Assembly (NCBI RefSeq): GCF_009938165.1
Contig: NZ_AP019649.1
Span: forward strand, 2,604,001 to 2,668,000
Direction: 5' to 3'
Origin: Vibrio taketomensis
Lineage (GTDB): Bacteria; Pseudomonadota; Gammaproteobacteria; Enterobacterales; Vibrionaceae
DNA: 64,000 nt
Position numbers and translations under genes: made by a program. The number at the start of each line of letters is the position of its first letter. Position 1 is the first letter of the stretch. The notes under the pieces are model-generated. The model worked only from the letters and a program-made list of their open reading frames with translations. It was not told where the DNA came from and did no database searches. This document shows positions 8,293 to 10,772 of this stretch, piece after piece.

Positions 8293-9300
8293 TCATAGTA
8301 CGTCGATTGCGTTTAGGTCAGCGAATGCTTTCTCTAGACGTGCAACCATTGACTCTTGACCAGCACGTAGCCATACGCGTGGGTCGTAGAATTTCTTGTT
8401 AGGAGCCGCTTCACCAGTTGGGTTACCGATTTGACCTTGTAGGTAATCGTGGTTCTTAGCTTCGTATTGACGGATGCCGTCCCAAGTTGCCCACTGTGTA
8501 TCTGTATCGATGTTCATTTTGATAACACCGTAAGAGATAGACTCTTTGATTTCAGCTTCTGAAGAACCTGAACCACCGTGGAATACGAAGTTTAGCGCGT
8601 TTGGAGCGATACCAAATTTCTCAGCACAGTATGCTTGAGAATCACGTAGGATAGTTGGAGTAAGAACAACGTTACCTGCTTGGTATACACCGTGTACGTT
8701 ACCGAAAGATGCTGCGATAGTGAAACGGTGGCTGATTGGGCTTAGTTTCTCGTATGCGTATGCAACGTCTTCAGGAGAAGTGTATAGCTCAGAAGAATCC
8801 ATATCTGAGTTGTCTACGCCATCTTCTTCACCACCAGTACAACCTAGTTCAAACTCTAGAGTCATACCCATTTTTTCCATACGAGCTAGGTACTTAGCAC
8901 ATGTTTCGATGTTTTCTTCTAGAGACTCTTCAGATAGGTCGATCATGTGAGAAGAGAATAGAGGCTTACCAGTTTGAGCGAAGAACTCTTCACCTGCGTC
9001 TAGTAGACCGTCGATCCATGGTAGAAGTTTCTTAGCCGCGTGGTCAGTGTGAAGAATTACTGGCACACCGTAAGTTTCTGCTACAGCGTGAACGTATTTA
9101 GCACCCGCTACAGCGCCAAGGATTTGTGCACCTTGACCTTCTAGTTTAACGCCTTTACCGCAGAAGAATGCAGCACCGCCGTTAGAGAACTGAACAACTA
9201 CTGGAGCTTTAACTTTAGAAGCAGCTTCAAGAACACCGTTGATAGAGTCAGTGTTAACTACGTTAACTGCTGGTAGTGCAAAGTTGTTCTCTTTAGCAAT
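8293..9300 (-). pseudogene. fba: Class II fructose-bisphosphate aldolase with disrupted 5' end (start and first 23 codons missing)
   Basis: Class II (zinc) aldolase, interconverting fructose-1,6-bisphosphate with DHAP and glyceraldehyde-3-phosphate. The open frame from 9300 to 8293 encodes 335 residues, equivalent to residues 24-358 of the E. coli enzyme. It starts I-AKENNFALPAVN and retains ILHTDHAAKKLLPW (catalytic Asp, zinc His), ELGCTGGEEDGVDN, NFVFHGGSGSSEAEI and KMNIDTDTQWATW. Directly upstream is an in-frame TGA (9303-9301). No ATG, GTG or TTG occurs in frame before GTG at 9066, which would remove about 100 residues. Only ATT (9300) could start the long form. AGGA at 9322-9319 looks like the original ribosome-binding site. 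Usually an essential gene, so this may be a sequence error, a real deletion, or non-canonical initiation. Confidence 0.75.
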
Positions 9301-9367
9301 TCAAAATCTTTAGACTAGTCCTATTTATCTGTCGTTTTAAAATTAAAACTTACTAATTTATGATTCT

Positions 9368-9463: not shown

Positions 9464-10624
9464 TTATTTTGCGCGTGCTTCTAGCATTTCAACTGCTGGA
9501 AGAACTTTACCTTCAACGAACTCAAGGAAAGCACCGCCGCCAGTAGAGATGTAAGATACATCAGCTTTGATACCGAATTTATCGATAGCAGCTAGAGTGT
9601 CACCGCCGCCTGCTACAGAGAATGCAGGAGACTGAGCGATCGCTTCAGAAATACCTTTCGTACCTGCTTCGAAGTTTTTGAATTCGAATACACCTACAGG
9701 GCCATTCCAAAGGATAGTTTTCGCGTTTGCGATGATTTCAGCTAGAGCAGCAGTTGAATCTGGGCCAAGGTCGAAGATCATGTCGTCGTCTTGAACTTCA
9801 GAAACGTGCTTGATTTCAGCTTCTGCGTTTTCGTCAAATGCTTTTGCACACGCTACGTCAGTTGCAACTGGAATTGCACACTCTTTCATTAGTTTTTGTG
9901 CAGTTTCAACTAGGTCTGCTTCGTATAGAGACTTACCTACGTTGTGGCCTTCAGCTGCGATGAATGTGTTTGCAATACCACCGCCAACAACTAGTTGGTC
10001 AGCAATTTTAGATAGTGACTCAAGAACAGTCAGCTTAGTAGAAACTTTCGAACCACCAACGATAGCCACTAGAGGACGCTCTGGGTTGCTCATTGCTTTA
10101 CCTAGCGCTTCTAGCTCAGCAGCTAGTAGAGGGCCAGCACATGCTACGTCAGCAAACATACCAACGCCGTGAGTTGAAGCTTGTGCACGGTGAGCAGTAC
10201 CGAATGCATCCATTACGAATACGTCACATAGTGAAGCGTATTTCTTAGATAGCTCTTCGTCGTTCTTCTTCTCGCCTTTGTTGAAGCGAACGTTTTCTAG
10301 TACTACTAGTTCACCAGCGTTTAGCTCTAGGCCATCTAGGTAATCTTTAGCTAGTTTAACTTCGCAATCTAGTGCGTCGTTTAGGTAGTTAACTACAGGT
10401 TGTAGAGAGAACTCTTCAGCGTATTCACCTTCAGTTGGACGACCTAGGTGAGAAGTTACCATTACTTTCGCGCCGGCTTCTAGGCATAGCTTGATAGTTG
10501 GAAGAGATGCGATGATACGTGCATCAGAAGTTACTTTACCGTCTTTTACTGGCACGTTTAGGTCAGCACGGATGAATACACGTTTACCTGCTAGATCCAG
10601 GTCAGTCATCTTGATTACAGACAT
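9464..10624 (-). CDS. pgk: Phosphoglycerate kinase
   Basis: Glycolysis and gluconeogenesis: 1,3-bisphosphoglycerate + ADP to 3-phosphoglycerate + ATP. 386 residues, normal length. Motifs: [15 protein letters not shown] (substrate Asp/Asn region), [38 protein letters not shown], and the nucleotide-binding C-terminal [13 protein letters not shown] and [15 protein letters not shown]. The ATG at 10624 follows GAGGACAAATC; the longer frame starting at 10639 has no such site. It lies between epd and fba on the same strand (148-bp and 163-bp gaps), the classical epd-pgk-fba order. Strong codon bias indicates high expression. Confidence 0.97.
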
Positions 10625-10772
10625 GATTTGTCCTCTCAAATAATAAAATAAAGTTTTTAACGACTCAGCAACCTTGCCAAGCCAATGAATTCTTTAAACT
10701 GCTTATGAATATGGAGATCGAGTTAATTTATTTCAAGGGTGAAAATAAATTTATCTGCACATTCTTGTGCGG

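Follow-up and report, generated by a model that had tools for sequence, protein, structure and literature searches.

Has Vibrio taketomensis lost the start of its class II fructose-bisphosphate aldolase gene (fba), or has only its assembled sequence lost it? We examined this question in a window of 64,000 nucleotides, the whole stretch of DNA that was analysed. The preliminary description of this DNA reported an fba frame without a usable start codon, and the features on which the question turns are the following.

8293..9300, minus strand: fba open frame without a start codon, 335 residues, equal to residues 24-358 of class II fructose-bisphosphate aldolase
8293..9066, minus strand: longest standard-start ORF of the fba frame, 257 aa, starting at GTG 9066
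9298..9318, minus strand: garbled patch of 21 bases; in relatives its place is taken by the fba start codon and codons 2-24 (80-81 bases, n = 12)
9301..9303, minus strand: in-frame TGA immediately 5' of the fba open frame
9319..9322, minus strand: AGGA, the conserved likely ribosome-binding site of fba, found 5' of the ATG in the 43 related loci printed
9464..10639, minus strand: intact pgk-like ORF of 391 aa upstream of fba, named from annotated plasmid matches

The aldolase frame and its counterparts in relatives

The minus-strand frame runs from 9300 to 8293 and encodes 335 residues before its stop. Read without a start, it scored 568.7 bits with NF006628 (cut-off 297), matching positions 24-356 of 359, and 549.2 bits with TIGR01520 (cut-off 347.7). 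The same 335 residues matched residues 23-358 of 1dos, a solved class II aldolase structure. The frame length and the NF006628 and 1dos matches bear out the earlier claim that the frame is open from 9300 to its stop and equals residues 24-358 of the enzyme. The sequence likewise agrees with the preliminary description on the in-frame TGA (9303-9301) right before the frame and on the retained AGGA (9322-9319). As described there, no in-frame start occurs until GTG 9066: a complete fba reading frame with a start codon is missing, and the earliest start available gives an ORF of 257 aa. Like FbaA (TIGR01520, NF006628; Escherichia coli structures 1dos and 1b57), the gene in the window holds residues 24-358, lies downstream of pgk and scores well above the cut-offs; unlike FbaA, it has as assembled neither a start codon nor the N-terminal segment. 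The loss of the fba start in the assembled sequence is thus confirmed.

We compared the locus with its closest counterparts. The 45 nearest loci by DNA identity were printed; two were the window's own, and each of the 43 others, some of which share a species, shows AGGA, a short spacer and ATGTCTAAG, which is the normal start. The alignment with fba of close Vibrio strains, which had been proposed as a check, returned a normal start in 43 of 43 related loci printed. The closest by DNA among the loci listed is L005, from Vibrio fluminensis, with 92.2% identity over the gene. All 60 other Vibrio genomes that we drew have a full fba match whose open frame is 359 residues or longer, against 335 in the window, so the short frame reflects more than chance. 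When 227 genomes were searched, 226 had an fba match at 1e-100, and the open frame was at least 355 residues long in every non-window genome among the matches listed; the exception, G169 (96% complete), had none at that threshold. The collections that we searched contained no other genome of this species. In a protein database clustered at 90% identity, the best 120 of 5487 matches were all at least 358 residues long and at most 95% identical, and a plasmid collection gave nine records with 60-80% identity.

The patch upstream of the frame

What stands in place of the missing codons? We compared the patch with 12 relatives, each located through the start sequence that it carries itself. From AAATAGGA to GCTAAAGAG there are 21 intervening bases in the window and 80-81 in the relatives, a net shortening of 59-60 bases. 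In the alignment, GTCTAA in the window resembles the region of codons 1-3 of the relatives, the bases immediately left of 9300 are similar to their codons 22-23, and the intervening part is missing. An ungapped mismatch count over the left flank (21/60) is uninformative, since a one-base length difference in the alignment would shift it.

The preliminary description proposed that a deletion between short TTTGA-like repeats took exactly the first 23 codons of fba. If so, one cut in the relatives' sequence should account for the junction. The best single-deletion model left 9-12 mismatches in the 21 bases at 9318-9298 when compared with the 12 relatives, versus 0-4 mismatches for clean deletions simulated among the relatives, a simulation with one fixed breakpoint and with the relatives' own divergence, which is possibly smaller than that of the window. 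Some resemblance to normal sequence persists: against L005 the patch has 9 mismatches, a value reached by 2.4% of shuffled segments (mean 13.3). The patch thus still carries faint traces of normal fba sequence, yet a clean deletion does not fit it. A single clean deletion between the repeats is unsupported by these counts, and we regard it as barely credible. The figure of 23 codons stands for the point at which the frame reopens; it does not stand for the lesion itself, which has no clean cut at codon 24. The lesion is instead a short garbled patch, with codon 24 marking where the frame happens to open again.

We also considered a copy from elsewhere as the source of the patch and rejected it: a 23-base pattern of the patch is single in the whole genome at up to 3 mismatches.

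Interrupted genes across the assembly

We then asked how other genes of the same assembly fare. The genes bamA, rseP, ileS and fba are normally essential; for fba in Vibrio, a literature search on essentiality found no paper. We searched the whole genome with the corresponding profiles and found the single-copy core genes bamA, rseP and ileS interrupted. TIGR03303 matches bamA in two adjacent pieces that lie in different frames. TIGR00054 matches rseP in three pieces, two of them above the cut-off. The TIGR00392 match to ileS ends at position 805 of 861 in a frame of 834 residues; a relative's protein is 942 residues long, and what is left of it aligns in a different frame of the window genome. 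No other copies of the three genes were found above the model cut-offs.

The neighbours bamA and rseP, both broken by frame changes, lie at about 2,300,700-2,304,500 of contig C1 (L227, L228, L231, L232), and ileS, whose last part is lost to a frame change, lies at about 2,402,700-2,405,080 of C1 (L229). Interruptions were also seen in rnc, nqrE and trmO-like genes; we take these names, and those of the transporter-like genes below, from the look of their sequences. At their breaks, bamA, rseP and rnc have one-base losses relative to a related genome. The breaks in nqrE and, less clearly, trmO are short mixed patches of gain and loss, as in fba: nqrE has 8 missing and 2 extra bases and trmO has 2 and 1, while the remaining measured breaks are mostly of one base. 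These two garbled patches, at about 2,341,500 (nqrE-like) and 2,273,900 (trmO-like) of C1, sit in otherwise conserved genes and resemble the fba patch in style. At about 2,860,200-2,866,000 of C1, four neighbouring genes, three of them transporter-like, are interrupted, most more than once, which suggests a locally poor stretch of assembly; the transporter-like run is placed near 2.862-2.866 Mb.

To put numbers on these interruptions, we counted shortened genes. A first pass covered chromosome-1 stretches of 400 kb each from the window genome and two relatives (ORFs of at least 100 aa, 60% identity), and its counts include some short ORFs that we take as spurious ones in rRNA. Here 16/271 and 8/120 genes were shortened going into the window genome, 5/272 and 3/122 going out of it, and 1/115 and 2/118 between the two relatives. 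A second comparison used chromosome-1 stretches of the window genome and of the relative G144 (minimum ORF length 150 aa, minimum identity 70%, coverage 85%). Over 696 kb of the window assembly, 13 of 443 G144 genes fell below 80% of their length in the window genome, versus 2 of 447 in the reverse direction. With the limit at 90% of length, 22 and 6 genes were counted, several of them apparently through a different choice of start; ileS belongs to the 22 and not to the 13. Within the window, the G144 comparison flagged fba and just one further case, probably a difference in start choice. Conserved genes are thus interrupted several times more often here than in two related assemblies.

A count of frame-changing gaps did not discriminate. 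Such gaps affected 55/417 genes going into the window genome, 37/424 in reverse, and 7/66 and 3/66 between the relatives. The single-base gaps in this count lean towards bases missing from the window genome (36 missing, 12 extra), but the trmO-like gene is gapped between the two relatives too, so the noise of the alignments is large and we rest no conclusion on the count.

It is difficult to believe in a cell that lacks intact forms of the essential proteins BamA, RseP and IleS, and of FbaA as well. Consensus errors are therefore very probably present in the assembly, and the fba lesion is most simply one of them. Taken together, these results suggest that a local consensus error in the assembly garbled and shortened the 5' part of fba, and that the organism very probably has an ordinary full-length gene; we put the probability of this reading at about 0.88. 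Error-prone reads or the making of the consensus would have left errors across the assembly, and the fba lesion would be one of these. The patch, which fits no clean deletion and has no source elsewhere in the genome, is consistent with such an error. Three observations count against it. At 59-60 bases net, the fba lesion is larger than the other measured breaks; the window genome, in two contigs, has a completeness score of 99.97% and a contamination score of 0.9%, although scores of this type can miss broken frames; and the gap count did not separate the window genome from the controls. The assembly or reading error that the preliminary description offered as its other option is well supported by the interruption of further core genes of this assembly, and its interpretation as a whole is partly supported.

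Consensus errors that fragment genes have been described for long-read assemblies of small genomes (Kastor, PMC12007338). There, comparison with reference relatives reveals frameshifts and premature stops in genes whose counterparts in those relatives are intact, and the breaks here came to light in the same way. The present case differs in that the fba patch exceeds the one-base breaks elsewhere in the window genome. In practice, a gene loss, a frameshift or a missing start in this assembly should be read as a likely sequence error until the reads have been checked.

Other aldolases and an alternative start

If the lesion were real in the isolate, fba would be dead, and fructose-bisphosphate would be handled by another class II aldolase or the step avoided otherwise. 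We looked for such an enzyme. A PF01116 profile search and a protein search of the whole genome found no second FbaA-type gene; the three PF01116 matches are fba and two paralogues with 28-30% identity to it. The search for a second fba or fbaB that had been suggested earlier thus came out negative for the FbaA type and positive for two distant class II paralogues. One of them passes the cut-offs of the GatY/tagatose-bisphosphate aldolase models. The other scores highest with fructose-bisphosphate aldolase models, but its 320.9 and 311.5 bits fall short of their thresholds (423 and 343.05, respectively); of the models listed, the general ketose-bisphosphate aldolase one is the only one whose cut-off it exceeds. 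For class I aldolases, PF01791 had three matches in the genome, of which two were scanned and both fit DeoC; PF00274 had none, a silence shared by 14 control genomes and thus no sign of absence.

A bypass of fba is possible in principle because the two other class II paralogues exist, and a real loss covered by one of them is possible but unlikely. Other Vibrio genomes carry paralogues of this family alongside a full fba, the patch is unlike a clean deletion, and the interrupted bamA, rseP and ileS of the same assembly point to error. We therefore consider a dead fba in the isolate decidedly improbable.

The shortened gene might instead be real and translated from an AUU at 9300 into a working enzyme of 335 residues. 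AUU starts exist, for example in infC. From ATT 9300 onward no stop closes the frame before its end, and AAAGA (9311-9307), which lies 6 bases before this codon, might serve as a weak ribosome-binding site. However, the conserved AGGA is 18 bases off, the normal start is kept in the 43 related loci printed, and with interruptions across the whole genome no special mechanism is needed; a start at this AUU is very hard to believe. There is a slim chance that this Vibrio truly lacks an intact FbaA and lives by another class II paralogue that acts on fructose-bisphosphate, or by an enzyme that starts at the AUU and lacks the first 23 residues. A consensus error remains our preferred reading of the locus.

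The paralogue that passes only the general ketose-bisphosphate aldolase cut-off lies at C2:1283855-1284694 (L002:1495-2355, minus strand), where it adjoins genes resembling a transporter subunit and a hydroxyacid dehydrogenase.
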